A stretch of DNA of 64,000 nucleotides from a virus: the IMG/VR virus record IMGVR_UViG_3300035670_000118, positions 1 to 64,000 of that record; one strand, 5' to 3'. Under the pieces are notes generated by a model that did not search any database, had not been told where the DNA came from, and worked only from the letters and a program-made list of their open reading frames with translations. A program made the position numbers and the translations under genes. Position 1 is the first letter of the stretch. The number at the start of each line of letters is the position of its first letter. This document shows, piece after piece, positions 2,861 to 63,924 of the stretch.

Positions 2861-3118
2861 TCAATAATTACTAGGAAGAATTCCCGCCTCATATTGGGAT
2901 TTACCATTTTTTAGTAAATACTCCAGTTGGATCCACTGTTTATTAGAAAGATACTTCTTAGTTGTTGCTTGTGTCCAAAGCTTTAAGAAAAACTGATTGT
3001 ATCTGTATCTCTCCGGAAGCCAATCCCATAATTTTTGGTAGTATTGGATTTCTGCGTCAGTAAAATATTTTCTATCCGCAGATGAACTAAAATTTTCGTA
3101 GATCTTAATGTGTTTCAT
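2861..3118 (-). CDS. Small protein with capsid-targeting-like leader
   Basis: I chose the ATG at 3118 (85 residues) rather than the upstream one at 3175, because it gives the leader MKHIKIYENF shared with over twenty proteins here and avoids overlap with the divergent gene at 3155. The IYE triplet would fit a T4-type prohead-protease site. The remainder (YYQKLWDWLPERYRYNQFFLKLW) is aromatic and helical and matches no family I know. Confidence 0.75.
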   Translation of the reverse strand: MKHIKIYENFSSSADRKYFTDAEIQYYQKLWDWLPERYRYNQFFLKLWTQATTKKYLSNKQWIQLEYLLKNGKSQYEAGILPSNY

Positions 3119-3154
3119 TAAAGTATATATTCCAAATCCGTAGATATATAAATT

Positions 3155-3913
3155 ATGGTTTCTGAGCAAATACAAGAATTAGTAGAATATCTTTCTAATA
3201 AAAACAAGGTCCTTTTTTTAACCACATCTAATAGATGGGAAGGTAGCAAAGAAATCCCCAAGTCCACACTATTGGCTATGGATATTAAATCTAGGCTTGA
3301 AGAGACAACAGAGGTTAATCTTTTAGAAATACCAAAATTAAAAATATACCCATGTGAAGGAAACGTATCCGGAGTAGAAGGAAACAATTGTGGAATAAAA
3401 GATTCTCTTCTAAAAGACACAGAAAAAGATCCCTCAGGAAATCATAGATGCTGGGCTTCATTAAACAATGAGGACGATGAATTATGGAAAGTAACCAAAG
3501 AGCTTTTCGAATCAGATGCAGTTGTTTTCTTTATAAGCGTAAGATGGGGTCAAGCAAATGCTTTCTATCAAAAACTTATAGAAAGACTAAATTGGATAGA
3601 AAACAGACACACAACTCTAGGTGAGGATAATATAGTATCTGGTATCGATGCAGGATGTGTTATAATAGGACAAAACTGGAACGGTGAGCAGGTATTAGAA
3701 ACTCAAAAACAAGTATACGAATTCTATGGGTTTAATGTACCAGATGAAATGTCATTATATTGGCAGTTCACTCAGGATTCAAATGACGAAACACAAGAAT
3801 CGTATAAAGAAGCTCCTAAAGTTTTTGGTAGAGAATTTGAAATATCTATAACGAAGCTTAAAGAATCCTTGAATAGGAGATTTAAAAATCTAAAGAGATT
3901 AATGGATTTCTAA
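3155..3913 (+). CDS. Flavodoxin-like NAD(P)H-dependent FMN reductase family protein
   Basis: 252 residues. The alternating strand/helix pattern, the early nucleotide-loop-like segment FLTTSNRWEGS, the cysteines at CEGN and NNCGI, and the later ISVRWGQANAFYQKLIERL resemble the flavodoxin-fold NADPH-dependent FMN reductase/iron-sulfur flavoprotein group. Such enzymes reduce quinones or other acceptors using bound FMN. It is one of few rightward genes in this part and is divergent from 2861-3118. Its role in infection is unknown, but it would fit redox support alongside thioredoxin. Confidence 0.75.
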   Translation: MVSEQIQELVEYLSNKNKVLFLTTSNRWEGSKEIPKSTLLAMDIKSRLEETTEVNLLEIPKLKIYPCEGNVSGVEGNNCGIKDSLLKDTEKDPSGNHRCWASLNNEDDELWKVTKELFESDAVVFFISVRWGQANAFYQKLIERLNWIENRHTTLGEDNIVSGIDAGCVIIGQNWNGEQVLETQKQVYEFYGFNVPDEMSLYWQFTQDSNDETQESYKEAPKVFGREFEISITKLKESLNRRFKNLKRLMDF

Positions 3914-4281
3914 GAAGGAAATTTTAATCCTCCTAAAGCTTTCCATACTACCTCAACTTTTTTCTCAAAGAAACCTATATTAAATTCTGCGCTCTCTTCA
4001 GTTTTGAAATCCCATTGGATAGCTTCTAATCCTATAATACCTAATCCTGCATTTATCTGAACTTCGAAAGAGAATTCAAACATCTCCGGATTCGGAACTA
4101 TATCATTTAGGTCATAGCAATAGCAATATATTGTATAATTAGAAGAACCCTCTGATTCAAAATCTTTAAAGTAGGCATCATAGCAAATCTGACCCTTAAT
4201 AGGCTTACCATCGAATTTATGGTATCCCAATTCTACTAGTTTTTTTCTAAAAGAATCTGAGACTGGTGTCCCTTTCTGCAT
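3910..4281 (-). CDS. Hypothetical protein
   Basis: I place the start at 4281 (MQKGTPVSDSF, 123 residues) because the upstream candidate at 4308 would overlap the preceding phosphoesterase stop. The protein is a mixed alpha/beta sequence ending FFEKKVEVVWKALGGLKFPS and has no motif I recognise. Its 3' end overlaps the flavoprotein gene by 4 bases on the opposite strand. Confidence 0.7.
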   Translation of the reverse strand: MQKGTPVSDSFRKKLVELGYHKFDGKPIKGQICYDAYFKDFESEGSSNYTIYCYCYDLNDIVPNPEMFEFSFEVQINAGLGIIGLEAIQWDFKTEESAEFNIGFFEKKVEVVWKALGGLKFPS

Positions 4282-4282
4282 A

Positions 4283-4945
4283 TTATTTATAGAGAGAAAA
4301 TTTTCCATCCTCGTATAAAACTTCTATCGGTTTATTAACTGGCGAATATCTCCTGTTTAGTAAACTACAATTCATAAAAATTGTTTGTCCATCATCGTAC
4401 GTACCATATCCCTCATGTATGTGTCCAAAAGCATTAATCTTAGGATTTACCCTCTTAATTGCTTTATAAAGGTCCTCACATCCAACATCTTCACCCTCAA
4501 GAACCATAGATAATCCGTTTTCCATATATGCAGGAGGACCATGTGTAATAAGAACATCAACTCCCTCTGGTATTTTATCCCAATGTGGCTGAATGGATGA
4601 TCCACGGAATCTATTAAAAGCCCAATTATGAAAATATGGTGTTATAGGAGATCCCCAGAATTTAATGCCTTCTAACTCTATTCCACTGTCTACCAGTAAA
4701 TGTATGTTTCTGGATTCGCAGTAATTTGATGAAGCTTCGTAGTATTCTTCAAAGAAAAAATCATGATTTCCTGGTATCATAATCTTGTGCTTATGTGGTA
4801 AAGCACAATACCAATCTAAAAATTTTTCGACCTCACTTCTATATCCTCTGCTTGAAACGTCACCACAGTGTATGATAAAATCACCATCTGGTATATTAAA
4901 CCGGTCATGTAGGGTATGAGTATCGGATATAAATACTAACTTCAT
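4283..4945 (-). CDS. Calcineurin-like metallophosphoesterase
   Basis: 220 residues with the metal-binding series of this superfamily in order: SDTH at 7-10, GD at 28-29, GNHD at 58-61, THGPP near 134 and GHIH near 177. The enzyme would hydrolyse a phosphomono- or diester with two metal ions; the substrate cannot be told. It is one of three phosphoesterases of this superfamily in the window (also 12901-13494 and 33490-34308). Confidence 0.92.
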   Translation of the reverse strand: MKLVFISDTHTLHDRFNIPDGDFIIHCGDVSSRGYRSEVEKFLDWYCALPHKHKIMIPGNHDFFFEEYYEASSNYCESRNIHLLVDSGIELEGIKFWGSPITPYFHNWAFNRFRGSSIQPHWDKIPEGVDVLITHGPPAYMENGLSMVLEGEDVGCEDLYKAIKRVNPKINAFGHIHEGYGTYDDGQTIFMNCSLLNRRYSPVNKPIEVLYEDGKFSLYK

Positions 4946-4947
4946 AA

Positions 4948-5109
4948 TTATTTTTTATCTTCTTGCTCTAATATATTAGATATTTCAAGATACGTTTTTT
5001 TCTTGTAGACTTCCATTAGAAGCTCAAACTTCATTGCTTCTTCTAATGTTTCTATTTTGATCTCATTTAAGTGGGAAATACATGAAGGTAAAATTATTGA
5101 ATTTTCCAT
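4948..5109 (-). CDS. Hypothetical small protein
   Basis: 53 residues from the ATG at 5109 (MENSIILPSC); the longer frame to 5253 would run over the divergent gene at 5190. It ends 2 bases before the phosphoesterase start codon, so the two are probably co-transcribed. Helical, charged C-terminus, no known family. Confidence 0.6.
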   Translation of the reverse strand: MENSIILPSCISHLNEIKIETLEEAMKFELLMEVYKKKTYLEISNILEQEDKK

Positions 5110-6719: not shown

Positions 6720-7133
6720 TTAAACCGTGTGGGGTATTTTATGTCTTGTGCAATTTTGTGGGAGCCTCTTGTTTTTAAGGTAGTTGTTTATATAACCCAT
6801 TATATTAGACGATCCTATAGGATTTGCACTGTGTACCATTATCAAAGGTAGATCTATCCCTTTATTCATACTTTCTTCTACTATCCATTTTGCACAGTCA
6901 TATCCAGTTTTTTCGTGAATATTATCATAATCTAAAATGTAATTTGTTTTTACATTCTTAAAATATTCCCTTATGGCAGTTTCTCCTAGGTCATGATCTA
7001 GTGATATCATATAGATGTTATTTAAGCCTATTTCATTGACTTTATCAACAAATTCATCGTAATCCCTACAAACGATCCAATCCTCTTCTATAGGGGTTCT
7101 AACGTCGTCTAAATACACTCTTACTTTTTCCAT
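6720..7133 (-). CDS. Cyclic-phosphate-processing receiver-like protein (cPPR family)
   Basis: 137 residues with YLDDVRTP at 7-14, SLDHDLG near 44-50, GYDCAKWIVEE and HSANPIGSSNI. This motif series belongs to the receiver-like domain described as cyclic-phosphate-processing (cREC/cPPR), which has been connected by comparative genomics to RNA repair and 2',3'-cyclic-phosphate ends. The conserved Asp pair and the His-Ser-x-Asn motif are intact. With a Ro-like protein in the same window, it supports a phage interest in RNA repair or surveillance, though that link is inference. Confidence 0.75.
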   Translation of the reverse strand: MEKVRVYLDDVRTPIEEDWIVCRDYDEFVDKVNEIGLNNIYMISLDHDLGETAIREYFKNVKTNYILDYDNIHEKTGYDCAKWIVEESMNKGIDLPLIMVHSANPIGSSNIMGYINNYLKNKRLPQNCTRHKIPHTV

Positions 7134-17331: not shown

Positions 17332-17346
17332 CATAAAATTCTTTAT

Positions 17347-17812
17347 GACTAATAAATTAGAAGAAAAAAAGGTTGAGGAGCTTATTCTTTATATAGAGGG
17401 CCTCGAAGACGAGAATCAAGAATTAAATCAAACAAAAGAAGACTACCTATCTGAACTTTTGGAAGCAAAGGAGAGGATTGAGTATTTAGAGCGAGACCTC
17501 GATAATCTAAAATCAAAATTTGAAGACCTAGAGGAGGAAAACTCTAATCTATATGAAAGGGCAGAATTACTAGACTGCCTAGAAAATTGGAGAGAAATCA
17601 TAGCAGATAGAAATGATGGCAGAAGCACAGAAATATATGATCGCCTATGTGATCTTATAAAATCGTTTAATGAATATCCTTTAGAAATGGCTAGGCTATA
17701 TAGGGAAAATCCGAGGGAAGAACTAGATAAAGTGCTAGACGAAAAAATATTAGAAGCACTAAGATGTAAAGGTGCGGCTTTACTTAACCGTTTTGGACTT
17801 AGCTCTACTTAA
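17347..17812 (+). CDS. Coiled-coil protein with C-terminal KGAxLLNRFG motif
   Basis: About 155 residues. Residues 5-75 form a long heptad coiled coil (EELILYIEGLEDENQELNQ and onward). The last residues are KGAALLNRFGLSST, a motif also found at the C-termini of 44423-44815, 45116-45799 and 55437-56333. It has no N-terminal capsid-targeting-like leader. Function unknown; oligomeric by the coiled coil. Confidence 0.75.
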
Positions 17813-20560: not shown

Positions 20561-21283
20561 ATGAAGTATATAAGCTATTTTAAAGAATTAAATAATTCTA
20601 TAATTCTTGAGCAATCTTTAAATAAGTCAGAAAAAACCGTTGATATTAATCAAATAGTTTATGGAAATGCACCGATTGAATTCAAGGAGATCATAGAAGA
20701 TAAGAATGATCCCATAAGAAAATGGTTCGAAAAAGAGGGGCTAATAGAAAAGATCATAAAAGAAGCTCCTTTGAACGACAGCGAAACTACAAGAAAAGAC
20801 CTAGAAGAATTACTAGAATTAACATCAAATGCAACGGGAGATGATGTTACATTTGCTAGATACGCTGATGACCAGAGCAATCTACCAAACATTTTTATAG
20901 ATTTTTTAAATTCAAAAGGATACGAAGAGACTATGGATGGATATTTTAGGATAGACAACCAAACGGACGCGATTCTTAATTATTTGAAGGACGTCATTAA
21001 TAGGCCTAGGCCATATCAGTTAGCTAAAGCTTATGACATTCCATTGTATCCATTAATAAGAACTGATGCCATGACCGCAGCTTACCCGAGCGGGCACGCA
21101 CTCACTGCATTTACAATGGCAGAGCATTATGCAAGAAAACATCCTGAAATTGCGTCCGAGGTTAGAGAAGTAGGAGAAAAAATTGCAAGAAGCAGGGAGG
21201 TGGTTGGCATCCACTATCCATCGGATACAAAAATCTCAAGATACATATGTGATATTATGTTTCAGAATGATCTAATCAAATAA
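20561..21283 (+). CDS. PAP2-type acid phosphatase with packaged-protein-like leader
   Basis: 240 residues. The three PAP2 motifs are present in order: K-x-x-x-x-x-RPRP (LKDVINRPRPYQ), PSGHALTAF and SREVVGIHYPSD with the catalytic His. Such enzymes hydrolyse phosphomonoesters, often lipid phosphates or nucleotides. No transmembrane segments, so it is a soluble class A-like enzyme. The first residues MKYISYFKELNNSIILEQ fit the leader shared by other proteins here, with ILE as a possible protease site. Possibly delivered with the DNA. Confidence 0.88.
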   Translation: MKYISYFKELNNSIILEQSLNKSEKTVDINQIVYGNAPIEFKEIIEDKNDPIRKWFEKEGLIEKIIKEAPLNDSETTRKDLEELLELTSNATGDDVTFARYADDQSNLPNIFIDFLNSKGYEETMDGYFRIDNQTDAILNYLKDVINRPRPYQLAKAYDIPLYPLIRTDAMTAAYPSGHALTAFTMAEHYARKHPEIASEVREVGEKIARSREVVGIHYPSDTKISRYICDIMFQNDLIK

Positions 21284-46082: not shown

Positions 46083-47687
46083 CTAGATGAATTCTAAATC
46101 ATCAAAAGAACCAATATATTTATTTTCCCAGACTTGTGATTCTTTAACTTTTTTAATTCCTTTATTTACCTTAGAAGCATATTTGGCATCCTTTTTTTCA
46201 ATCTCTACAGTTCCCATTTTAAATAAGGGCTTGCCTTTAGATTTTGGAATTTCTCCGTGTTTTTTATTGTCCGCCCCTTTTCCATGACCCCCGTGTGCTT
46301 TTTCCATTTCTGCATCTAAGAGTTTTTTAGCAGCAATCTGTCTTTGTATAAATTTTCGTGATTTATCAACTAATGGTTTAAAATATTTTTCACATATTTT
46401 AGCTAAATAAGATGTCATAGGCTTAACTATAGCACTTAACCCTTTAGCTATTATCTTCGATAAAAATCCATCTGCAACTTTAGAAAATTTATCAATCGCA
46501 TCCGTTAATTTTTTAGGTATGTCGAGAAGCCAATTTATTCCTTTAAGTATCGAATCACTACTTTTAAGCATAAATTCATAAAGCCACCCACAAACATCGG
46601 TAAAGAATTTAGCACCAAGGATTGTAATTCCCCCGACTACACCCGCGCCAACTGCTGCGCCAACTTTAGGATTAGCAAAGAAATTTTTAAGAAATCCACC
46701 TAATACTTTTTCTATAGTGTGGCCCAGATTTCCTAACCAAGATTTTGAAGCAGCTTTAGCAGTTTCTTTAACCCCTGCGGCAATAGATCCTGCTGCTGGA
46801 TTTGCTAGTGCTTCTGTTAATCCGTGGCTTATATCATAAAATCCAAGAGGAAGAAATAATAATCCTAGGAAAAGATCAGGACCAGCTTTAATCATACCTG
46901 CCGCAAATTTAGCAATAGGATCTACCGGTACATCCTTAGATATCTCAGTTGCGTGATGAATTTTATGGAATCCTTCATATATGTGTATACCACCATTTAT
47001 AGCCATAATACCCCCAGCAATTGCTGTAAGTATAGGTCCTATTCCTACTGCTGTTAAAAGTCCTCCAGCTATTCCTAAAACTGAACCAAGTACAGTAAGA
47101 ACAATCGTTATTGTTTCTAAGTTATCTCCTACAAATTTAGCGCTGGCCGATACTGCTGTTTTCATCCATTCCCATGCTTTTTTAGCACCATCTGACATTT
47201 TATCCCAAGACTTAGCAACAAATTCCTTAGCGTTGCTTATTTTTTTCTTAGCATAATCAACAGCTTTATCCTTTAATTTGTGATATGCTTTTTTAAGATC
47301 ACTAAACGAAAACATTTTAAACTCATTAAGATTGTTATTCTGTACATAGTCTAAAGTTTTCTTTTCTATAATAAAAGCCTCTGAATTTTTAACTAGTATA
47401 ACGTGTGTTTCTGCGTCTACATAATGAATATCCCCTTCGGTTTCTCCCCACGAAGATCTAGCTTCAGAAAGCATTGCGATTTCGTAGTATGCGTGAGCTT
47501 CATTTAAAGAATCATCATCCATATATTCTTCTGACTCGTTTAGATAGGAAGAAAATAAATTCTTGAATTCTTCGCATGTATATTTAGGCATACAGCTCTG
47601 ATTTAAAGAGAATAATTCGTTAATGTTAGCACCTCCATCATTAGGAGCAAAGTTGTAGAAGGATTCGAAAGTTTCTATGTAATTCAT
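46083..47687 (-). CDS. Large packaged membrane-active protein candidate
   Basis: 534 residues. Leader MNYIETFESFYNF without a clear I/L-x-E site. Residues about 150-350 hold several Gly/Ala-rich hydrophobic segments (TIVLTVLGSVLGIAGGLLTAVGIGPILTAI; KVGAAVGAGVVGGITILGA), like pore-forming or tape-measure proteins; the C-terminus is Lys-rich. If packaged, it could form a channel during DNA entry. An ordinary tape measure is less likely because it is short. Confidence 0.72.
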   Translation of the reverse strand: MNYIETFESFYNFAPNDGGANINELFSLNQSCMPKYTCEEFKNLFSSYLNESEEYMDDDSLNEAHAYYEIAMLSEARSSWGETEGDIHYVDAETHVILVKNSEAFIIEKKTLDYVQNNNLNEFKMFSFSDLKKAYHKLKDKAVDYAKKKISNAKEFVAKSWDKMSDGAKKAWEWMKTAVSASAKFVGDNLETITIVLTVLGSVLGIAGGLLTAVGIGPILTAIAGGIMAINGGIHIYEGFHKIHHATEISKDVPVDPIAKFAAGMIKAGPDLFLGLLFLPLGFYDISHGLTEALANPAAGSIAAGVKETAKAASKSWLGNLGHTIEKVLGGFLKNFFANPKVGAAVGAGVVGGITILGAKFFTDVCGWLYEFMLKSSDSILKGINWLLDIPKKLTDAIDKFSKVADGFLSKIIAKGLSAIVKPMTSYLAKICEKYFKPLVDKSRKFIQRQIAAKKLLDAEMEKAHGGHGKGADNKKHGEIPKSKGKPLFKMGTVEIEKKDAKYASKVNKGIKKVKESQVWENKYIGSFDDLEFI

Positions 47688-47920: not shown

Positions 47921-48781
47921 CTAGAGATATTGTTTTAGTGTTTTGCTTCTAGATTCAACCCTTAGCTTTCTAAGACCCTTTTCTCTAATCTGTCTTACTC
48001 TTTCCTTAGTCAGAGAGTATTTTTCACCAATCTCATCTAATGATTTAGGATGTGTGTATCCTATTCCGTAGTTTAATTTTATTATCTCTCTACATTTAGG
48101 ATCTAAGGCGGAGAGACTTCTTTCAATATCAACCCTTAAGGATTCCTCTATCATTATAGAATCTGTTGAGGGGAAATCGTTGCTTAGTACTTCTATCATT
48201 GAGGAGTTTTCTTGGTCACCCCCCATTGGAGCGTCGTAGGATACATGATTTCTCGAACTGCTTAAAGTGTCTTTGACTTTCTGTTCTGGGAGATCCAGTT
48301 CATCTGCTATCTCTTCAGAGGATGGAGCTCTACCTAGATCCTGCTCTAATCTAGCATATGCCTTGTTTATTTTACTTAAAACACCAACTTGATTTAAAGG
48401 TATTCTTATAACTCTCGCTTTCTCTGAAAGAGCTTCCATTATTGCTTGTCTAATCCACCAAACAGCATACGATATAAACTTAAATCCCCTTGTCTCATCG
48501 AATTTTTTAGCAGCTTTTATCAGTCCAACATTTCCCTCGTTTATTAGATCAACCAGGGGAAGACCTTGATGTTGATATTGCTTGGCAACTGACACAACGA
48601 ATCTTAAGTTTGCTCTAACCATTTTATCTAAAGCCTCCTGGTCCCCATCTTTTATTCTTCTGGTTAAATGTGTTTCCTCGTCGGCAGTAATCATTTCCTC
48701 CTTTGAAATATCTTGTAAATATTTTTCTAAAGCTTTATCTTCCCTACTTGTAATACTCGATGTGATCTTAAGTTGTCTCAT
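47921..48781 (-). CDS. RpoD-like primary sigma factor (sigma 2)
   Basis: 286 residues. All sigma-70 regions from 1.2 to 4.2 are present and read like the Bacteroidota housekeeping sigma: start MRQLKITSSITSREDKALEKYLQDI, region 2 GFKFISYAVWWIRQAIMEALSEKARVIRIPLNQVG, region 4 YSLTKERVRQIREKGLRKLR, end SRSKTLKQYL. As in that sigma, region 1.1 is absent. It could compete with the host sigma or keep transcription of host-type promoters going. Much closer to the host factor than sigma 1. Confidence 0.95.
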   Translation of the reverse strand: MRQLKITSSITSREDKALEKYLQDISKEEMITADEETHLTRRIKDGDQEALDKMVRANLRFVVSVAKQYQHQGLPLVDLINEGNVGLIKAAKKFDETRGFKFISYAVWWIRQAIMEALSEKARVIRIPLNQVGVLSKINKAYARLEQDLGRAPSSEEIADELDLPEQKVKDTLSSSRNHVSYDAPMGGDQENSSMIEVLSNDFPSTDSIMIEESLRVDIERSLSALDPKCREIIKLNYGIGYTHPKSLDEIGEKYSLTKERVRQIREKGLRKLRVESRSKTLKQYL

Positions 48782-52226: not shown

Positions 52227-53822
52227 ATGAATCATCTTAAAAATTTCCTACAGTTTATAAACGAGGGTGCTTGGTACGATAGTGAGGGGAAAACATATTT
52301 ATCTGTAAAAAACGATCCAAGTAACCCCAATGAGCTACTAAAAACAATAAATCCAAACAATCTTAATTTTTCGGAAAGAGGTATAGCAAATATAAAAATA
52401 TATTTTGGTCTTTATCCAAGAACTCCATATGTTGCTGACACAGAGGAAGGTGATAATGCTAAGAAATTTATAATGGATCCTTTAAAAGATGACCGTTTTT
52501 CGATGGCTCCTGGTGAAACCTTGGAGGATTTTTTTAGATACACCTTCACAAATAATATAGAGGGAAATATAGACTACATAGTAACCATAGGAAGTAGCAG
52601 GGATCTTGTTAAGAAAATGGAGGGATCTTTTTTAAATATCTATCCAAATGCTACAGTAATCAGTATACCAAAAATAAAATATACAGATGTTATGCAGGCT
52701 GTAGACTGGGATTCATATAACAGAAAAATAGAATCAGAGCTTGATATACCCAGAGGATACTACGAGAAAGATGTAATCAATAAAAGGACTGGCAAAGTAA
52801 TACACAGAAAAGGAGACGAGAAACCTAGATATTCACCCACTATGCGAAGGGTAGAGCCATGGATAGATGGAATGATAGCTAATCTATCAATACAAGCACA
52901 AGAAGGGAAAGATCCTAGCTTTGAAATAAGATCCTCCGGGGAAATGGGAGGAATAAGAAGCTCGCTAAGACCAAAATATAACACAGCAACAGAAGCATTT
53001 ATAAGCGCTGTACACCATTGTGGATTAGGGGATAATGCTGGCAACTTCGGAAAAATGATCATCATAGACGATAATATAAATCAAGGAGTAGACCTAAGAG
53101 ATATCTCCAATAAAATAGTTGAAATTCTATCAGGCATTGTAGACATAACAAAAAATATAACTGAGGAAAGATTAAAAGGATCTGACATCTTCTCTAAAAT
53201 CGCCAAAGAATCAATAAAAAAAATAAATGAAAATATATTTTGTTACGCCCTATACAATTTTGGACCAAGCGGTAAAAAATACGAGCCGGACGAAAGATAT
53301 AAAGTTAATCTCCTTAAAAAATCTTTCTTAGATGCAGTAGCAGATATGCAGGGAACATCAGCGGAAAGCATAGAGAGAAGAATGTGGAGACCAGGAGGTT
53401 ATTTATTAAAAGAACCAACCCCAATAATTATTAATGCTGGCGAGAAAAAAATATTATTGAACTCAGTACTTGACTATGCTACAAATGAATTGAAAAAAAT
53501 ATCCCAGGATCCAGAAGTGGAAATAAGAGCAGATCTAGAGAAAATATTAAAAAATAAAATAAATAAAATTTTACTAGTTGTAGAGGAAGAGCCAGAGAAA
53601 GAAATCTCTTCTAAATACCCACATTTAGATTACATAAAAATAGGGGATAGAGTAAGTTCAGGAAATTCCGAAGGAGTAATCCACGACTTAGATAGACAAA
53701 GGGGGACGTACAGAGTAATGGGAACTTCTGGTAGTGCAACAGGAAAGATTACTATTCCTTTCGATCTCAGAACTCTGGAAGACTCATGGGCTGGAGCAAT
53801 AAGCTGGAAATTAAAGAAATGA
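52227..53822 (+). CDS. Large packaged-protein candidate with PRTase-like segment
   Basis: 531 residues. Leader MNHLKNFLQFINEGAWYDS with INE as possible protease site. The segment MIIIDDNINQGVDLRDIS around 275-295 looks like a phosphoribosyltransferase PRPP loop (IIxDDxxxxGxxL), and HHCGLGDNAGNFGKM precedes it. C-terminal beta domain DRVSSGNSEGVIHDLDRQRGTYRVMG. Might act on nucleotides or ADP-ribose; tentative. Confidence 0.72.
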   Translation: MNHLKNFLQFINEGAWYDSEGKTYLSVKNDPSNPNELLKTINPNNLNFSERGIANIKIYFGLYPRTPYVADTEEGDNAKKFIMDPLKDDRFSMAPGETLEDFFRYTFTNNIEGNIDYIVTIGSSRDLVKKMEGSFLNIYPNATVISIPKIKYTDVMQAVDWDSYNRKIESELDIPRGYYEKDVINKRTGKVIHRKGDEKPRYSPTMRRVEPWIDGMIANLSIQAQEGKDPSFEIRSSGEMGGIRSSLRPKYNTATEAFISAVHHCGLGDNAGNFGKMIIIDDNINQGVDLRDISNKIVEILSGIVDITKNITEERLKGSDIFSKIAKESIKKINENIFCYALYNFGPSGKKYEPDERYKVNLLKKSFLDAVADMQGTSAESIERRMWRPGGYLLKEPTPIIINAGEKKILLNSVLDYATNELKKISQDPEVEIRADLEKILKNKINKILLVVEEEPEKEISSKYPHLDYIKIGDRVSSGNSEGVIHDLDRQRGTYRVMGTSGSATGKITIPFDLRTLEDSWAGAISWKLKK

Positions 53823-53826: not shown

Positions 53827-54222
53827 ATGAAAAATTTAATATTATTTGAAAATTTCTTTACGAAAGATCCTGCTCCTATAACAAGAAGTGAGCTAGAATA
53901 CCTGATTACAAAAACCGGTAAAACTCCTTTTATTTTTGCTATTGATGATTTAATTGATCCCTATTTAATATCCCAAGAGGAATGGAAATATCCAGGATCT
54001 GTTTCGATGGCTTCAGTTAATCAATTTTCTAAAATATTAAATAGAGAGATAGTAATGAGTCCTAGTGGATACGTGAGGGAAAAGCCTATAGCGGTTCTTG
54101 TCTCTAAAAGAGATCTTTCAAGACTTCCCGAATCTATAATAGGAAGAGCGTATAATTTTATAATAGATGACAACATCTATGGGGTGATAACGAATGGAAT
54201 AGATTACTACGAATTAAGATAA
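53827..54222 (+). CDS. Packaged-protein candidate
   Basis: 131 residues. Leader MKNLILFENFFTKDPAP with LFE. It begins 4 bases after the previous stop. The rest is mixed alpha/beta. No known family. Confidence 0.7.
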   Translation: MKNLILFENFFTKDPAPITRSELEYLITKTGKTPFIFAIDDLIDPYLISQEEWKYPGSVSMASVNQFSKILNREIVMSPSGYVREKPIAVLVSKRDLSRLPESIIGRAYNFIIDDNIYGVITNGIDYYELR

Positions 54223-54916: not shown

Positions 54917-55420
54917 TTACCATTTAAGGAGCGATTTTAATTTATCTGCTCCTCCCTCTACCGCTTTCATGACATTGTGCCCTGCTTCTTTTGCTGAATC
55001 GAGTACATCACTCAAATCTATATCCATTTCTTCCGCAGTAACTTTTATGTTAGCAACATTATCTGCAGATTTTTCACATCCGGTTTTACATGTCAGCGTG
55101 AGTGATGCACCAGGAAGATCGAACTTTATTTTAGACTTCCCTAAATTTTCCTTGATGGATTTAATTGTTGTCCCTTCTTTAGAAAGAGGACTAGTTATGC
55201 TTTTACCTAAAGCACTAACTAGAATAGAATTACCCTCTGGGAAATCCTTAACTTTTATCCCAACTACACCTGCACTAACAACGTAAACATAAGTTTTATT
55301 AGCAGCAGTGTCCACTACTTGTATCTCACCGTCTTTTGTTGCACTCATTTTATAGTTATCAACAACAAAGTCGGATTCATTTATAGGATCAAAGTTTTCA
55401 AAAAGTTTAATATGTTTCAT
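54917..55420 (-). CDS. Packaged-protein candidate
   Basis: 167 residues. Leader MKHIKLFENFDPINESDF with two candidate sites (LFE and INE). The middle is beta-rich with two Cys (TCKTGCEK) and the end is helical. No known family. Confidence 0.75.
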   Translation of the reverse strand: MKHIKLFENFDPINESDFVVDNYKMSATKDGEIQVVDTAANKTYVYVVSAGVVGIKVKDFPEGNSILVSALGKSITSPLSKEGTTIKSIKENLGKSKIKFDLPGASLTLTCKTGCEKSADNVANIKVTAEEMDIDLSDVLDSAKEAGHNVMKAVEGGADKLKSLLKW

Positions 55421-55436: not shown

Positions 55437-56333
55437 TTAAATAACACCGAATCTTCCCAGCATTCTCGCTCCCTTTATTGTGCTAATTATTTTAGAGTTT
55501 CCTTCTTCTTGTAATCTTTGTATTATCTCCTTATATAATTGGCTTGCCGTTTGTTTTGAAAGGAAATTTTTAATTAATTGAGTAATTATCTCAGTTCTAT
55601 CACTATTTAATATCTTTAATAGGACATCAATAATTGGTAATTGTAGATCCTGCTTCATTAACCCTGTCTCTAAGAATTCATATTTATGATTTCCTGCATC
55701 TGACCATGTATACAAAATATCAGAATCATTATTATAACACAAATTAAAAGGACACTCATCGAAGAAATCATCGAAGCAAGGAGAAGTGTTATGTATAGCA
55801 TCCTGACCATAAAGTTCAGGATCTAGACTTTCTGGAGAAAGAACTAAAAAATTCCATGCTTTTTTTCCGAATTCTCCAAAATAATCACCATCAAATTGAA
55901 TTCTCATATTTGAGTTGAACTTAGATACTGTTTCGTTCCAATATGAGTTGTCCCCCTCATACGAATCCGCTAGTTTCTCTGGATCCGTCCCATCTATACC
56001 TAAAGTGTCTAGCCAAGAATCTATACCTTCCAAATTTTCTTCAGATCTATCCTCTAAATAATATTCAACTGCATCAACAAGGTCCCCAAAACCATCAATC
56101 CCATTCATAGGCCCATGTTCAGCATCCATATACTCTTCAAATAAATCATCCACATCAGGAGCATCAAGAAGATTCCCATCGACGTCGAAAAGATCTCCAC
56201 TCTCCTTTAAAACAAAAATTGGATATCCATACTCCTCAGCTGCTTCTATAAATATAGAATATGTATAGCTTTGATTATTTCCAGAGGAGGTGCTTTCAAA
56301 AAATTGTGTGAAACTCTTTACTCTTTTTTCCAT
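55437..56333 (-). CDS. Packaged-protein candidate with C-terminal motif
   Basis: 298 residues. Variant leader MEKRVKSFTQFFESTSS (FFE) and a C-terminal KGARMLGRFGVI related to the NRFG motif. The middle is very acidic (about 60-130 and 145-200). An exact GGATATATAA lies 15 bases upstream. No known family. Confidence 0.75.
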   Translation of the reverse strand: MEKRVKSFTQFFESTSSGNNQSYTYSIFIEAAEEYGYPIFVLKESGDLFDVDGNLLDAPDVDDLFEEYMDAEHGPMNGIDGFGDLVDAVEYYLEDRSEENLEGIDSWLDTLGIDGTDPEKLADSYEGDNSYWNETVSKFNSNMRIQFDGDYFGEFGKKAWNFLVLSPESLDPELYGQDAIHNTSPCFDDFFDECPFNLCYNNDSDILYTWSDAGNHKYEFLETGLMKQDLQLPIIDVLLKILNSDRTEIITQLIKNFLSKQTASQLYKEIIQRLQEEGNSKIISTIKGARMLGRFGVI

Positions 56334-57104: not shown

Positions 57105-57476
57105 ATGATACACATTAAACTTTTCGAAGAACACTATCTTGATTTAGCTCATCTCGATCTTGTTTTAGTGGAAGAAGCACCACAATACAAATCCTTTGCA
57201 ATTTATTTTAATAACAGAAAAGCTGGTATATTAGATGTCGGGTTTTACAAGGAAAATCTTAGATATGATGAGGCCGAGATCGCAGGGATTCATGTATACG
57301 AAGAATTTCGAGGGAAAGGGATAGGTAGACTAGCAATAAGAAGATTGTTTGATAAATTTCCCAGCGTGAACTACTTCCTAGCAATGCCCACACAGGAGAG
57401 TATGGATTTTTGGAAAAGTATAGGTGCTGAATATCACGAGGATGGGTATCTGTCTATAAAAAGAGGATCTATTTAG
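57105..57476 (+). CDS. Packaged GNAT acetyltransferase
   Basis: 123 residues. Leader MIHIKLFEEHYLDL with LFE, followed by a GNAT domain: IAGIHVYEEFRGKGIGRLAIRRLF holds the acetyl-CoA loop RGKGIG, and FWKSIGAEYHEDGYL is the last motif. It should acetylate a small molecule or a protein. If packaged, it could modify a host target at entry, by analogy with Alt and other T4 injected enzymes. Confidence 0.85.
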   Translation: MIHIKLFEEHYLDLAHLDLVLVEEAPQYKSFAIYFNNRKAGILDVGFYKENLRYDEAEIAGIHVYEEFRGKGIGRLAIRRLFDKFPSVNYFLAMPTQESMDFWKSIGAEYHEDGYLSIKRGSI

Positions 57477-58266: not shown

Positions 58267-59207
58267 TACTTTATTGTAACATCAACCCCAACATATCCCC
58301 TAGGCAAATTCTCGGTCGTTATCCTTGCGCCAGGAAAGTTCTTTACTATATAGGCTTTGTAAAGATTAAGTCTTCTTCTATCATCCTCATAAGATATACT
58401 AGGAACAAAAGAAAAAGTTTTAACCTCTGGATTATTACTAAGATAATCTTTTAGAATCCCGATAATAGTTCCCATTATTGTAAATGGATGCCCAGCATTA
58501 GTAATATCGTCACGATTACCGTCGCATGAGAAATACATAGTTATGTTTTCTAAAGATTTTCTTTCTATATGTACTTCGTAAAGTTCTGGCCCAAAATAGA
58601 AACTATAGAGAGCTTCTTTTTTGTTACTATATACAACGTTCCATGGAAGATGTTCTATGTTTGCTTCACCTATTTCATTAATCATAGATTCATAAACAAA
58701 AAAATCGTCATAAAATTTAGAGTACTTAAGAATATTCCCATGCTTGTGTTTTTCTTCCAGTCCAGCGATTTCATTCTTTTTGAAAATATCATTGAATGAA
58801 TCAGGTAATAAATTAATATATCCTCCAGAAATTTTTCTTAGATATACACCTAAACCTGTGTACATAGTAGAAGAAAAAGGTATAGGAGAAGTCAATAAAA
58901 TAATAGCATAAGGGGCTAGCTTAGGAATTTCTTTTAATTGTTCCAGTGCATTTTTAAATTCATCCTCTGTTGGTTGATCCCCTCTGGTATCTAGTCTGAG
59001 TTTTTTTCTTAGATGATAATTGAAAACCCTCATCATCTCTGTGGTTTCTCTTCCCTCAGTTTTAAAGGCATTGAAAACGTTATAAGCAATTTCCTTAGCT
59101 CTTTTATAAGCAAGTCTTATACCTTCAAATGAAGTACCCTCATCTATTTTTAAGTTGTCCTTATTTTTTTTGAGGAAATCACCATTATTTTTTAGGAAGG
59201 ATGTCAT
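58266..59207 (-). CDS. Hypothetical protein, possible LETM1-like segment
   Basis: 313 residues. The segment FKNALEQLKEIPKLAPYAIILLTSPIPFSSTMYTGLGVYL followed by INLLPDSF resembles the LETM1-like domain in some Bacteroidota phage proteins; the C-terminal part (HPFTIMGTIIGILKDYL, DRRRLNLYKAYIVKNFPGA) reads like a GNAT-type fold. The N-terminus MTSFLKNNGDFLKKNKDNLKIDEG is only weakly like the packaged leader. Confidence 0.6.
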   Translation of the reverse strand: MTSFLKNNGDFLKKNKDNLKIDEGTSFEGIRLAYKRAKEIAYNVFNAFKTEGRETTEMMRVFNYHLRKKLRLDTRGDQPTEDEFKNALEQLKEIPKLAPYAIILLTSPIPFSSTMYTGLGVYLRKISGGYINLLPDSFNDIFKKNEIAGLEEKHKHGNILKYSKFYDDFFVYESMINEIGEANIEHLPWNVVYSNKKEALYSFYFGPELYEVHIERKSLENITMYFSCDGNRDDITNAGHPFTIMGTIIGILKDYLSNNPEVKTFSFVPSISYEDDRRRLNLYKAYIVKNFPGARITTENLPRGYVGVDVTIK

Positions 59208-59892
59208 AGATTCCGTAAGGTATTGTCTTAAAATTATTCTCCTTTCTAAATTCCCCTAACATTTTAACAAATTTTTCAACATAAGGCTTAGGTAATTGGA
59301 TACAGATTCTTTTTATATCTACAGGTATGTTATCATCCTTATCTAAAGAATTTTTAAAAAGCTCAGGACGATAAACGTTAGTGTTATCTCCTTCTACTCC
59401 AGTCACAGGAACATTTAAGCTTCCAGTTCCAGAAATGTCAACACTAACAAATTGTTCAGCTTCTGCCTCTTTTGAGTCTTTGACCGTAGATTTACCAACA
59501 ATCGCCTTACCTGCGGTAAATTTAATTCTGCTTGGGTCAATGAATGGATAGTTTTTAAGAGCTTTTATAGTGTTATCTCTTCTTCTTTCAGCAAGACCTT
59601 GATTATCATATCTTCCCTGTCCTACTGCAGAGGCTCCAGCACTAACAGTAACGTTAACAGTTCCTTTAGAGTTTTGAAGTAGATCATTAATTAATTGGAC
59701 TATATCTAAGAATTTTTTAGATTTAGGATCTAATGAGTCTACGCCAATTTCAAAAGCTCCCGTCCCTTTTGCTGTGATACTCCGTGGTATTTCTATGCCT
59801 TTAGGATATTTAGCTTTCATTCTATCGATGCTGCTTGTATCTCTGCCTCCGAGATGTTCGTTTATTTCTTCAAAAGATCTAAGGTGTCTCAT
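59185..59892 (-). CDS. Packaged-protein candidate with OmpA-like domain
   Basis: 235 residues. Leader MRHLRSFEEINEHLGG with INE. The middle VNVTVSAGASAVGQGRYDNQGLAERRRDNTIKALKNY is an OmpA-C-like signature, which binds peptidoglycan. An exact GGATATATAA lies upstream. It might anchor to the cell wall during entry or lysis. Confidence 0.75.
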   Translation of the reverse strand: MRHLRSFEEINEHLGGRDTSSIDRMKAKYPKGIEIPRSITAKGTGAFEIGVDSLDPKSKKFLDIVQLINDLLQNSKGTVNVTVSAGASAVGQGRYDNQGLAERRRDNTIKALKNYPFIDPSRIKFTAGKAIVGKSTVKDSKEAEAEQFVSVDISGTGSLNVPVTGVEGDNTNVYRPELFKNSLDKDDNIPVDIKRICIQLPKPYVEKFVKMLGEFRKENNFKTIPYGIYDILPKK

Positions 59893-60007: not shown

Positions 60008-60997
60008 TTATATGGATATCCATTTATTAAGATCCGAAGATGATACATTTTTTATGTAAGGTCCTCCTTTAGGATCAAAACATGTGTTTACGTTCTTTTG
60101 GATAGGAAGATCCCATTTATATGTTCCAATTAATGAGTTTTCTATTTTGAAATTATTATTAGAAACCCAAGCCCAAACAACCCCAAGATCATAGATCTTT
60201 GTTGATATGTTTAATAATGGAGGATATATCTGTATTTGAGAGAATTTATAAAACCAAACGTTCTGCTCGAAATCTATCGAAAGATCATCGCCTATTCCCT
60301 TTTCCCCTATAATATGGGCAAAAAATTTAAGATCAACAGTCCCTTTTAGTTTACCTTTAACATATCCATCTGCTTTAAACTCTGTGGGAGCAGTGAATGT
60401 AGCGTCTTTTATTTTTATTGATTTAATTTCAACACTAAGACCCGCACTAAAGCAAACCTCCTTAGAGGAAACTAGATAATTTACTGTATAGCACTTTTCA
60501 AATTTAGGCGGGATAGCGGAATCAACCTTATCATTTATAAAAGGTAACGTTGAAGGAAATATCGAGTTTAAGAACCCTATTACTTGTTTTTTTTGCGACG
60601 TATATTTAGCTAAATAATCGGTCTCGTTCTCTTCACTTATAAAATTCTCATTAGCTTTAGCATTTTTTATGGGAGATTTTTCACCCGGTATAGTAGGGGT
60701 TTCTTTGGAGAGATTATTAGTGTTATCTGGTTCTTCACCTTTTAACCCGGAAAGAATAGTTCTGTGATCTAAATTACCATCCTCTTTTATTCCTCTTTTT
60801 TTCTGAAATTGCTTGATGTCTTCTTTAGCAAGTTCTTTATCATTAGATACACCAAGGATCTTTTTGATCTTCGATAAAAATCTAGGCTTTAGTCTTAAAA
60901 ATTTAGTGGATGTTTTTAAATTTTCTTTAGCATTTTCATTAATATCAATAGCATTAGAAAAATTTTCAAACAATAAAATATATTTAAGATCTTTCAT
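60008..60997 (-). CDS. Packaged-protein candidate with peptidoglycan-binding-like segment
   Basis: 329 residues. Leader MKDLKYILLFENFSNAID with LFE. Residues about 30-88 (LSKIKKILGVSNDKELAKEDIKQFQKKRGIKEDGNLDHRTIL) resemble a PG_binding_1 domain. The remaining beta-rich part is unrecognised. The gene is bracketed by the 78-bp direct repeats, as if gained as a cassette. Confidence 0.75.
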   Translation of the reverse strand: MKDLKYILLFENFSNAIDINENAKENLKTSTKFLRLKPRFLSKIKKILGVSNDKELAKEDIKQFQKKRGIKEDGNLDHRTILSGLKGEEPDNTNNLSKETPTIPGEKSPIKNAKANENFISEENETDYLAKYTSQKKQVIGFLNSIFPSTLPFINDKVDSAIPPKFEKCYTVNYLVSSKEVCFSAGLSVEIKSIKIKDATFTAPTEFKADGYVKGKLKGTVDLKFFAHIIGEKGIGDDLSIDFEQNVWFYKFSQIQIYPPLLNISTKIYDLGVVWAWVSNNNFKIENSLIGTYKWDLPIQKNVNTCFDPKGGPYIKNVSSSDLNKWISI

Positions 60998-61003: not shown

Positions 61004-61081
61004 ATAAACTATTTGCTTATTACCGTTACAAACTTTTCTGTGAGACTACCCGATTTGTGCTTAGCCTCCTCGTATCCTTCC
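61004..61081 (-). repeat. 78-bp direct repeat copy B (3' end of 61009-61653)
   Basis: The functional copy, encoding the last residues of the 61009 protein. See copy A. Confidence 0.9.
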
Positions 61082-61653
61082 ATTTTTTTATATTTCATTA
61101 GTCCAGTAAAATCCCCTCCATGACCTAATCCTCCTCTTCTTGCTATAAGATAGTGGACGCCTTCGGGAACCTTAACAAGAGGAACAGAAACACTTAATTT
61201 ACTTCCCACCATTTCCATCTTAATATTTTTCACGTCAGGCTTGACACTTATAGTTTTAAGGTACTCATTAAGCTCTAATGTTAGAACATTTAATAACTGA
61301 TGGATAGTATCTCCTTTACCCCCTTTGGCATGTTTAAGTAGAAATCCCGAAGCAGGTCCATCATAATTAATATTAAAAGATGTTGGAGATTTTTGGATTG
61401 TTATCTTTGGTACTGTTCTACCTCCTATTTGACTTGTTCCGTTCCAAAAAGCATCCTTACCAAAGTGAGTCCAGCAGTCGTAGTTTGGGCACGATGCCTC
61501 GTCATTTCGGGAAGTGGAAACTGGTCCGCTGGGAGAGTCTGAGCCAGAAGCACCTGCCTCACCTCCTCCTAAACCTAGTAATTTAGCAAATCTATTAGCA
61601 TCAGAAAATAGCTGCTCGTTTATAAATTGATCTATTGATTTAATATATCTCAT
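61009..61653 (-). CDS. Packaged-protein candidate
   Basis: 214 residues. Leader MRYIKSIDQFINEQLFSDANRFAKLLGLGG belongs to the EQLF-type extended group. A Ser/Gly linker follows (about 28-50), then a mixed alpha/beta domain with two close Cys (CPNYDCW). No known family. The gene's 3' end is duplicated beyond the next gene. Confidence 0.75.
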   Translation of the reverse strand: MRYIKSIDQFINEQLFSDANRFAKLLGLGGGEAGASGSDSPSGPVSTSRNDEASCPNYDCWTHFGKDAFWNGTSQIGGRTVPKITIQKSPTSFNINYDGPASGFLLKHAKGGKGDTIHQLLNVLTLELNEYLKTISVKPDVKNIKMEMVGSKLSVSVPLVKVPEGVHYLIARRGGLGHGGDFTGLMKYKKMEGYEEAKHKSGSLTEKFVTVISK

Positions 61654-61656
61654 CTG

Positions 61657-61944
61657 TTAAGGTACGAGTTTTTCTACCGATAGTACGGAATATTTTTTAC
61701 CTTCCCCGTACTGATTTCCTGGCGTCTCGTTTAAAGTGACCTTAAAATAATATCCAGGAACAGCATTACTTTTAAGTGCGTAAACTAATTCAGACTTTTG
61801 ATTTATATAATCTACACTTTGCATTCCCATTTTACTAGCAACAGTGTCGCTAGAAACTATTGCCTTGATCTTTTCGGCGGAGGAATAAAAAGGAGCTTGG
61901 TATTCATCTAATCTCCCGTATTTATAATCATTGAATGTTTTCAT
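61657..61944 (-). CDS. Packaged-protein candidate, small
   Basis: 95 residues. Leader MKTFNDYKYGRLDEYQAPF starts like T4 MKTY; LDE is a possible site. Beta-rich end (YFKVTLNETPGNQYGEGKKYSVLSVEKL). No known family. Confidence 0.65.
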   Translation of the reverse strand: MKTFNDYKYGRLDEYQAPFYSSAEKIKAIVSSDTVASKMGMQSVDYINQKSELVYALKSNAVPGYYFKVTLNETPGNQYGEGKKYSVLSVEKLVP

Positions 61945-61959
61945 TTTTTGCCTTTTATT

Positions 61960-62700
61960 TTACCACATTTCTGTGCTATAAACAGATATTTCTCTCAATA
62001 TACCATTTCCTGGTCTTGCAAAGGCATATCCCATCCCAGAGATGCTTACCCAAATAGCCTCTTTTAACCTATTTCTATCGTCTAATAAATTTGTTTCTGG
62101 AAGTTCCCCTCCTTCAATCAAAGGAAGCTTAACACCATTTTTTACCCAACTAGGAGTTTTCTTTCCCATTATAAACAGAGGGTCCGAATGTTCTTCTGCC
62201 CAAGCTTCTAGATCCAATTCATAAAAACTAAGTGTTAAATCTTTTCCTATATGAGACTGCATTTCTCTGTTAATATCATCCTCCAAATCATCAATTTCAC
62301 TCAAACGCTGACTTTGTTGTAAAGGAATTGGGTTTTTCTCATATTGATCCGTTCCCCTATTATAATAATGTCCATAAAAATCGATAGGAATATTATTTAC
62401 TGTACCACCGTATGTTGATCCTTTATATGTAGGAAAAACCTTAATTTTTCTAGGTGTTATAACATAGCTATCTCTCCCTTTTGATATTAAATCTCCCGAA
62501 ATATCAATAACAAAAGAAGCATCCCAGCTGGTTTCATAAGTTATATTTATCTGTGAATGTGTAGCGGATTTTAAATAAGAGTCTTTACTCTTATCCGGTG
62601 AATAACCAAAGCTAGGAGGCATTTCTTTCTTACTTCTAAAGATGTCAAATATCCCCTCATTTAAAGAGAAATCGTCAAAAGATTTAAGGTGCTTTTTCAT
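61960..62700 (-). CDS. Packaged-protein candidate
   Basis: 246 residues. Leader MKKHLKSFDDFSLNEGIFDIFRSKKE with LNE. Beta-rich middle (INITYETSWDASFVIDISGDLI). An exact GGATATATAA lies 17 bases upstream of the ATG. No known family. Confidence 0.75.
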   Translation of the reverse strand: MKKHLKSFDDFSLNEGIFDIFRSKKEMPPSFGYSPDKSKDSYLKSATHSQINITYETSWDASFVIDISGDLISKGRDSYVITPRKIKVFPTYKGSTYGGTVNNIPIDFYGHYYNRGTDQYEKNPIPLQQSQRLSEIDDLEDDINREMQSHIGKDLTLSFYELDLEAWAEEHSDPLFIMGKKTPSWVKNGVKLPLIEGGELPETNLLDDRNRLKEAIWVSISGMGYAFARPGNGILREISVYSTEMW

Positions 62701-62717
62701 TTTTTTATTATTTACTA

Positions 62718-62727
62718 TTATATATCC
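62718..62727 (-). promoter_or_regulatory. Late-promoter-like GGATATATAA
   Basis: Exact 10-mer on the minus strand, 17 bases before the 62700 start codon and abutting the stop of 62727-63194. Confidence 0.65.
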
Positions 62728-63194
62728 TATTTTATAAGATTCTTTAATGGATTAAAACATATTCTATATCTTCTCATTAATTCTATGTTATAAAAGAAGT
62801 GGCGGTTGTTGCTATTTATACTGTCACCGCTTACGAAATAATCCTCGTCATAATATGTAAAGTAGTACTCATCATATTCAGTGTTAGTGTCATCGTCCAT
62901 ATAACTCTTAAATCTATAATAGCTATCTGCTATAGTTTTATAGAACTCACAAGGAGAATTTATTCTTCCAATCTTGTTAACCTCATAATGATCATCCTCC
63001 CCATGTTGAACAAAAGAAACATCAGGTATCCCATCTATAATCATACGAGCGTGTTCTCTTTCAAATTCTAGATCGAAAAGGATATCCTCTATTTTTTTTC
63101 TACATTCCTCGTCGCTCTTGTATCCGATAAGATAATAGCCATAACTAGCCCTTCCGTAAGTGGTATCAAAATGTGAAGCTTCTAATAAATACAT
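62727..63194 (-). CDS. Hypothetical acidic protein
   Basis: 155 residues, Tyr- and Asp-rich (YMDDDTNTEYDEYYFTYYDEDYF). No leader. Lies between two packaged-protein genes. No family recognised. Confidence 0.65.
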   Translation of the reverse strand: MYLLEASHFDTTYGRASYGYYLIGYKSDEECRKKIEDILFDLEFEREHARMIIDGIPDVSFVQHGEDDHYEVNKIGRINSPCEFYKTIADSYYRFKSYMDDDTNTEYDEYYFTYYDEDYFVSGDSINSNNRHFFYNIELMRRYRICFNPLKNLIK

Positions 63195-63198
63195 ACAC

Positions 63199-63924
63199 TT
63201 ATTGTTCCATTATCCAAACTGTGGGATCTATGTGATTATAGAAGTGCCAGAACATTCTTCTTCTACCTCCTATTGTGTAGTAATTACCTCTATACAATAT
63301 AAACTGTGTACATGGTAATTGTCCTCCACTTTCTTCAACACGGTTAAAGTGTGCTATGGATCCTTTTATGTAAGTCGCCCAGAATTGAGCCATGTTTATA
63401 GCAATGTCTGGATATTTTTTTACAAGCCCTAATGTATTACCAAGGGTATAGTCGTCTAATCCTGCTTCGATTGCTTTATTGTATTCGCTCTCACATTTAC
63501 CTAAATAATCCGGATCTTTCTCTAAAATATCCCAATCATGATTTTTAAATGTAGTAGCTAATCCTCTCCTTAAATAATCAAGAGGAATCTTTTCCATTTC
63601 CCCACATTCAAATAATTCACGACACCAAAGAATAAAAGGAACAAATCTTGGATCTCTTTCCTCAGCTATATCTAAGAGTTCATCAGTTGTTATTTCGCCC
63701 GGTTTGCTAGGCGGATCCACGTGGTTTTCTAACCATTTTGGCTCTCCCCCAAATCCATCTTCTCTAATATCAAATATATCTTGGTCTATCTCCGAGGGGA
63801 GAAGCTCTCTTAACTCTGGATAAGATTTAAAAGCCCTATAGAACTCTTTAAATTCATACTCAGGTTTTTTATAGTTAGGATTTTTCTTAGCTATAAACGA
63901 TTCAAATAATTTTAAATGTCTCAT
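63199..63924 (-). CDS. Packaged-protein candidate
   Basis: 241 residues. Leader MRHLKLFESFIAKKNPN with LFE. The rest is helical and charged (EFYRAFKSYPELRELLPSEID; DYTLGNTLGLVKKYPDIAINMAQF). No known family. Confidence 0.73.
   Translation of the reverse strand: MRHLKLFESFIAKKNPNYKKPEYEFKEFYRAFKSYPELRELLPSEIDQDIFDIREDGFGGEPKWLENHVDPPSKPGEITTDELLDIAEERDPRFVPFILWCRELFECGEMEKIPLDYLRRGLATTFKNHDWDILEKDPDYLGKCESEYNKAIEAGLDDYTLGNTLGLVKKYPDIAINMAQFWATYIKGSIAHFNRVEESGGQLPCTQFILYRGNYYTIGGRRRMFWHFYNHIDPTVWIMEQ

Follow-up and report, generated by a model that had tools for sequence, protein, structure and literature searches.

The closest described systems are the internal proteins (IPs) of phage T4 and the processed head proteins of the phages phiKZ and SPN3US. 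T4 carries three IPs, all of them restriction enzyme inhibitors (PMC12373910), together with Alt, and at least 10 IPs are described among its relatives (PMC9026906; PMC12373910). IPI to IPIII bear a short N-terminal peptide on unrelated bodies, which in IPII and IPIII is spaced aromatic-x-x-F-[IL]-x-E, and the prohead protease gp21 cleaves after L/I-x-E (PMC9026906; PMC12373910). According to PMC9026906, residues 4 and 7 are needed for targeting and residues 8 and 10 for cutting, and an aspartate at residue 10 stops cutting while targeting persists; targeting in T4 does not require cutting. In phiKZ and SPN3US, very large phages, many proteins reside in the head and some are cut after E by a gp21-related protease; SPN3US propeptides span 20-254 residues (all but two exceed 110), with nine substrates and 42 head proteins judged uncut, and the accessible text of PMC10052503 and PMC13282480 describes no short leader common to many unrelated proteins. 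Here we analyze a stretch of uncultured viral DNA, the first 64,000 bases (the window) of the 85,958-base IMG/VR record IMGVR_UViG_3300035670_000118, in which 23 genes with unrelated bodies share an N-terminal leader of the consensus MKHIK(L)FE.F(INE). With a probability of about 0.8, we read this leader as a T4-type capsid-targeting propeptide of a huge T4-related phage, by which cargo would be loaded into the head with the DNA.

The 85,958-base record is wholly contained, at 99.994% identity, in IMGVR_UViG_3300036770_006296 (206,617 bases, hereafter G024), which has a close relative, G034. The closest named record, judged by one AAA protein with 45% identity, is that of the uncultured phage LR756500 (462,018 bases). 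A PHROGs scan of ten G024 proteins returned a single-strand DNA binding protein, helicase, primase, two DNA polymerase parts, topoisomerase II and ribonucleotide reductase, which we take to resemble the replication set of T4, and a tRNA scan found no tRNA.

The leader on these unrelated proteins is real. All 23 genes named in a preliminary description of this DNA have an open frame from an ATG whose product opens with the peptide as it was described or in a variant form, an internal ATG of a longer open reading frame (ORF) being taken as the start for 2861, 22559, 38937, 39715 and 45116. A weight matrix was derived from 121 leaders located elsewhere in IMG/VR, with the G024 leaders left out, and applied at a threshold score of 2. 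It accepts 16 of the 23 window genes and, over the whole of G024, 31 of 312 gene starts, against none of 758 internal methionines and none of 1,486 open stretches that begin with ATG in the reversed sequence. Elsewhere the threshold is reached at 16/155 starts in G034, 0/221 in Flavobacterium phage immuto, 1/114 in two stretches of PTm1 and 0/37 in two stretches of T4. Further leader genes follow past the window end, at record positions 63926-78293. Seven window genes score below 2 (20561, 22559, 41580, 41938, 55437, 61009 and 61657); an I/L/V-x-E site is present in five of them (20561, 41580, 41938, 61009 and 61657), the last of which is the least convincing member.

A degenerate DNA pattern encoding M[KR]H[ILFM][KR]xFExF, which nearly fixes residues 1-3, 7, 8 and 10, partly fixes residues 4-5 and leaves everything after residue 10 free, occurs in at least 119 stretches of IMG/VR and in 26 stretches of a bacterial and archaeal genome collection (mixed taxa, seven titled Bacteroidota). 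With two mismatches allowed, 18 records of 149-482 kb, hand-chosen among records in which an exact match had been located before, give 6 to 50 matches each and 298 in total, compared with 2 for the reversed pattern. The highest count, 50, belongs to the 482-kb record G002, and the 28 matches of G025 are mostly one repeated variant. In two regions of G025 (61424-68130 and 183146-191746) many successive ORFs start with MKHIKPYKIF; these long arrays probably consist of tandem paralogs that bear a variant of the leader. A tblastn search of named phages with a doubled leader consensus gave no match; within the open-licence literature no paper on this leader was found and four literal leader strings were absent.

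In relatives, a putative cut-site motif stands at a fixed position behind many of the leaders. Among the matches listed, 125 distinct IMG/VR leader proteins were obtained (a few from two contigs, L088 and L104, that lie within G024); 65 of these carry [ILV]xE at residues 11-13, and no other position between 8 and 59 has it in more than 8. Leaving out the L088/L104 proteins and those shorter than 30 amino acids, the motif is found at 11-13 in 65 of 119. Across all 125, residue 13 is occupied by E in 80 proteins and by D in 14. For the window, the preliminary description had placed I/L/V-x-E after the leader in most cases; this holds for 15 of the 23 (residues 9-26), for a short motif that is frequent by chance. 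As the rest have no such site, the window leaders form two classes, with and without a later site. Counted over residues 4-26, [ILV]xE is found in 22/23 leaders versus 114/272 other genes, partly due to the LFE within the consensus. The possibility that an early LFE and a late INE site substitute for each other was not significant and was dropped (p=0.057 in G024; 0.83 and 0.19 in IMG/VR leaders). The window genes are as follows, with matrix scores where informative.

2861-3118, minus strand: MKHIKIYENF; 85 amino acids, body of unknown kind, no later I/L/V-x-E; score 20.4.
20561-21283, plus strand: MKYISYFKELNNSIILE; PAP2/acid phosphatase body; score -8.8; the site ILE is retained in the G034 relative.
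21299-21871, plus strand: MKHISDFNAFNNNSLSE; body also in phages of Flavobacterium, Methylophilales, Pelagibacter and Roseobacter.
22559-22900, plus strand: MNYIELYENF; 113 amino acids; score -3.0; the G034 start MNHLELYENF scores at least 2.
22902-23729, minus strand: MRHLKSLEEFRIVNEQLF; endolysin-like body.
38937-39713, minus strand: MKHIKNIQEFNHLYEQLF; CHAP body.
39715-40446, minus strand: MKHLKSIDEFKIANEQLF; low-confidence linker and predicted alpha/beta-hydrolase-like fold.
41580-41936, plus strand: variant MIKKYKDFLSINE; 118 amino acids; score -12.3.
41938-42252, plus strand: variant MLTKYKEFLKLYE; 104 amino acids; score -15.4.
44423-44815, minus strand: MRHIRLFENF; also a C-terminal tag (described below), KGASMMNRFG.
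45116-45799, minus strand: MKRIKLFENF; C-terminal tag KGGNLLNRFG.
46083-47687, minus strand: MNYIETFESF...INE, the site being residues 22-24; 534 amino acids; weak family matches only.
52227-53822, plus strand: MNHLKNFLQFINE; 531 amino acids; weak NttE match under the cut-off; no tblastn match in named phages.
53827-54222, plus strand: MKNLILFENF; 131 amino acids.
54917-55420, minus strand: MKHIKLFENFDPINE; 167 amino acids; fits the search pattern exactly.
55437-56333, minus strand: variant MEKRVKSFTQFFE; C-terminal tag KGARMLGRFG; score 0.8; no I/L/V-x-E.
57105-57476, plus strand: MIHIKLFEEHY; GNAT acetyltransferase body starting at residue 22.
59185-59892, minus strand: MRHLRSFEEINE; 235 amino acids; no family matched.
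60008-60997, minus strand: MKDLKYILLFENFSNAIDINE; PG_binding_1 under the cut-off.
61009-61653, minus strand: MRYIKSIDQFINEQLF; 214 amino acids; score -3.9.
61657-61944, minus strand: weakest member, MKTFNDYKYGRLDE; 95 amino acids; score -29.4; retained on LDE alone.
61960-62700, minus strand: MKKHLKSFDDFSLNE; 246 amino acids.
63199-63924, minus strand: MRHLKLFESF; 241 amino acids; fits the search pattern exactly.

The bodies behind the leader are as diverse as first described: 51 G024 leader proteins, a set that includes 20 hand-picked broad-motif genes and is therefore not blind, fall into 48 sequence families. As with the T4-type capsid-targeting sequence, a short N-terminal peptide is thus common to proteins with unrelated bodies (31/312 starts; 48 families among 51). 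Several of the body names given earlier were borne out and others were not. PAP2, GNAT and CHAP exceed the Pfam cut-offs; the 'GH19' gene (22902) matches phage endolysins and no Pfam family; the peptidoglycan-binding domain of 60008 stays under the cut-off, and the OmpA-like assignment of 59185 was not confirmed by any family. Sequence comparison marks the leader as an added module. At window 6720-7133 lies a cyclic-phosphate receiver protein (PF20274) without a leader, and its relative on another contig (L086) is preceded by MKHIKTFESFLNES, the alignment running from residue 4 onward versus residue 20 onward at 44% identity; in a P-loop protein spanning the window end the Pfam domain starts at residue 17. 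Both relatives found of 39715 retain MKHLKSIDEFK..NEQLF, followed by a stretch that differs in length. The structure model of 39715 has a helix at residues 7-27, a low-confidence stretch at 29-56 and a well-predicted alpha/beta domain (mean predicted local distance difference test score, pLDDT, 75), for which Foldseek returned hydrolase-like matches (best E 1.7e-5, template modelling score 0.41-0.57 in the best 20 rows); the model of 38937 was uninformative (mean pLDDT 30). A longer start ending in (N/Y)EQLF is common to 22902, 38937, 39715 and 61009 despite their unrelated bodies and forms a second layer of N-terminal module.

The architecture of the leader matches that of the T4 propeptides. 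MKHIKLFEQFINE followed by A is spaced like MKTYQEFIAE followed by A in T4 (IPII and IPIII both begin MKTYQEFIAEA; the preliminary description had given MKTYQEFIAE for IPIII), and when both are aligned on the cut site, T4 Y-Q-E-F-I-A-E lies over leader F-E-Q-F-I-N-E. Two spaced hydrophobic or aromatic residues precede the site, as do T4 residues 4 and 7, a likeness of sequence pattern. Defined generally as hydrophobic-x-x-hydrophobic-[ILV]-x-E within the first 17 residues, this architecture is enriched at gene starts over internal methionines in G024 (25/312 versus 13/776), LR756500 (38/523 versus 19/1,330) and immuto (20/221 versus 3/673); the T4 stretches give 4/37 versus 1/99 (p=0.02). In the 400 of 462 kb of LR756500 that were covered, 33 starts read M[KE][YFH][IVL]xx[YF], 19 of them with [ILV]xE at 11-13 (typically MKYIKEYEEFILEA), and several immuto proteins start with MENFDLKKFLVENKLT or MKKSQLRQIIKEAL. 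These leaders resemble that of the window in architecture and in occurring in a genome with a prohead protease, but their letters differ, and each lineage seems, from such comparisons, to have its own wording of one leader architecture. Four leucine-rich-repeat proteins of LR756500 (13446-15077, 180972-181730 and 198758-199531) combine a MKYIKEYEEF-type leader with a common second segment.

The window leader also differs from the T4 IPs: it has its own consensus, three residues longer ahead of the motif, and whereas T4 has three IPs, a single record has dozens of leader genes, among them enzymes of many kinds. The earlier statement that this phage packages far more proteins than T4 holds for the gene count only. 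Unlike the mostly >100-residue propeptides reported in PMC10052503, leader and any site lie within about 25 residues.

Genes of the head were sought in 33 large leader-bearing records (23 plus 10). Peptidase S77, the family of the prohead protease, matches in 16 of the 23 (14 above the cut-off) and 3 of the 10 more, 19/33 in all; the capsid protein gp23 matches in 17/24 (the 24 include the window's own record) and 5/10 more. An S77 match is also present in LR756500, and a prohead protease is annotated in immuto. In G025 and G027 S77 was not called, yet the ORF next to gp23 starts like the proteases when inspected by eye; profiles miss divergent genes. In T4, the core proteins gp67 and gp68 occupy the interval between portal and protease. 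At the place of T4 gene 68, 10 of the 19 relatives have a leader ORF (112-173 amino acids) that begins 389-576 bases upstream of the S77 protease, G014 and G023 being near copies, and G011 has an extra leader ORF between protease and capsid gene. Because [ILV]xE lies near the N-terminus of all 19 proteases (the start codon is ambiguous in G010; T4 gp21 has LIE-9) and near residues 17-20 and 39-44 of all nine capsid proteins examined, the sequences suggest that the relatives' S77 proteases retain the T4 specificity.

Several observations weigh against a capsid-targeting role. Peptidase S77 was found neither in the 85,958-base record nor in G024 or its relative G034, and gp23 neither in the 85,958-base record nor in G024; the gp21-like protease that the preliminary description had proposed to locate elsewhere in the genome was sought in these 86-kb and 207-kb records and none was found. 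Both are probably fragments, G024 being read as such because the searches found no head genes in it. Ten of the 33 large records (G003, G004, G006, G008, G020, G024, G028, G029, G032 and G033) match neither gp23 nor S77, and at nine of the 19 protease loci the upstream sequence examined (0.4-1.5 kb) contains no leader ORF. The capsid protein of LR756500, which itself has a different leader, matches 80 wider capsid loci, of which the 50 with upstream flank were taken; a protease was recognised in 44, and a MKHIK-type leader adjoins it in only 2. The remaining six hold 1-5 leader ORFs each, not placed. The two PTm1 stretches (100 of 225 kb) show no enrichment of the architecture (3/114 versus 5/392). 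In G034 orthologs leader residues are no better conserved than the body (0.51 versus 0.61, p=0.12; 79 G024 genes with a G034 hit, 19 leader pairs, at least 58505, 60712 and 135845 having matched a paralog). The [ILV]xE site in residues 9-26 also occurs in 97 of 272 other genes (versus 15/23, Fisher p=0.007) and is missing from 8 of the 23. The interpretation first proposed is supported in part: a T4-like capsid-targeting leader is backed by the architecture match, the fixed spacing of leader and motif in relatives, the unrelated bodies, constraint at the protein level, head-cluster leader ORFs in some relatives, S77 in 19/33 records and a promoter-like signal.

That signal, the motif ATATATA(A/G) within 40 bases upstream, accompanies 16 of 31 leader genes (p=1e-10) and, in the broad-motif set, 13 of 35 (p=4e-7), each compared with 12 of the 246 remaining genes, one of these 12 being the listed 55437. 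A GGATATATAA-like box lies within 40 bases before starts such as 21299, 22902 and 59185 and is probably the late promoter of this phage. The late promoter of T4 has a similar AT-rich box. The leader similarity might in principle arise at the DNA level, from a promoter or translation-start signal extending into the coding region, and the codons of H3 (CAT 0.46 versus 0.72 in bodies) and K5 (AAA 0.93 versus 0.74) do deviate from those of the bodies. Synonymous codons are, however, mixed at every leader position tested and used as in the bodies at F10 (TTT 0.71 versus 0.72) and E13 (GAA 0.80 versus 0.77); the constraint is mainly at the protein level, and a DNA signal, which would leave [ILV]xE at residues 11-13 unexplained, is highly improbable. 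We give hardly any credence to leader proteins being diverged copies of one family in which only the N-terminus was kept: paralogs do occur (23285/47757 and 58505/60712/149811 in G024, and the four leucine-rich-repeat leader proteins in LR756500), but 48 families among 51 with differing known folds and a receiver protein that occurs with and without leader argue otherwise.

Two further explanations concern the destination. The leader might target the prohead core with most of its clients serving as assembly factors comparable to T4 gp22, gp67 and gp68, to be degraded or expelled as the head matures, and not as delivered cargo. The leader ORF directly upstream of the protease in 10/19 records, at the T4 gp67/gp68 place, would suit such factors; a scaffold has no need of whole enzymes such as PAP2, GNAT, CHAP, endolysin or P-loop protein, and 6 to 50 pattern matches in each of the 18 chosen records are likewise difficult to reconcile with it, so that we consider this unlikely. 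A sorting signal to another site, be it tail or baseplate, membrane or replication compartment, appears less plausible still. Several leader proteins are cell-wall hydrolases, which are tail-borne in other phages, and ten of 33 leader-bearing records lack gp23 and S77 matches; profiles overlook divergent genes, as the protease-like ORFs next to gp23 in G025 and G027 (by eye) illustrate, and the fixed [ILV]xE, the head-cluster position and the T4-like IP propeptide architecture point to the head.

The capsid-targeting reading remains strongly preferred, and the steps that we infer, from core binding through cutting and virion presence to delivery, would be these. Late in infection the leader would bind the scaffold core of the prohead, the aromatic residues 7 and 10 of MKHIKLFEQF acting as counterparts of the T4 targeting residues, and the leader-bearing proteins would be enclosed as the shell forms. 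Where [ILV]-x-E follows, an S77 (gp21-type) prohead protease would cut after E and free the body inside the head; where the site is absent or ends in D, the protein would be loaded and stay uncut or be cut elsewhere. The cargo would then leave the head together with the DNA. Among the window proteins it would comprise the cell-wall hydrolases, the phosphatase, the acetyltransferase, the alpha/beta-hydrolase-like protein and many others of unknown kind, to which the larger record adds P-loop and AAA+ ATPases. The presence of all 23 proteins in the virion, their cutting and their delivery are predictions.

A capsid-targeting leader is as a kind already known; its wording and the number of clients are new. 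It is conceivable, though we put it forward tentatively, that one huge phage loads some 50 to 100 different proteins, in cut and uncut classes, into its head through a lineage-specific leader, among them enzymes and ATPases that would act when infection has just begun, within the first minutes, and that in this lineage a C-terminal KGxxMLxRFG tag directs additional proteins either to that virion address or to a different one. Were this the case, the injected proteome of uncultured huge phages could be read from sequence. Phage proteins injected with the DNA are mostly uncharted, and the leader, being legible in raw sequence, would provide candidate lists for uncultured huge phages, with predicted mature N-termini, as well as new signals by which foreign proteins might be brought into phage heads.

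In 12 G024 ORFs, belonging to nine body families, the C-terminal tag KGxxMLxRFG stands no more than 6 residues from the stop; five more copies lie inside proteins or at a protein start, and none occurs in the reversed genome. The tagged window ORFs are 17345-17812 (plus strand) and, on the minus strand, 44423-44815, 45116-45799 and 55437-56333, and several tagged proteins also carry the N-terminal leader or a variant. The tag codons vary, indicating a peptide-level signal. No tag match was found in LR756500 (400 kb), G034, immuto, the PTm1 and T4 stretches or other leader loci; two G034 orthologs end in diverged versions.

Some neighbouring genes deserve mention. Two sigma-70-type factors were identified with Pfam (24106-24987 and 47921-48781, both minus strand), and a similar third ORF was seen by eye at record positions 84578-85423. 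A deoxyhypusine synthase family protein, odd for a phage (40543-41523, minus strand; PF01916, E 6e-40), directly adjoins two leader genes, and its gene adjoins the same leader pair in a relative (L350). Histidine-kinase-like ORFs extend over 26988-30792 on the minus strand (HATPase_c in 26988-28427; 29026-30792 by eye); together with a receiver-like ORF at 26555, also recognised by eye, they possibly constitute a phage-borne two-component set.

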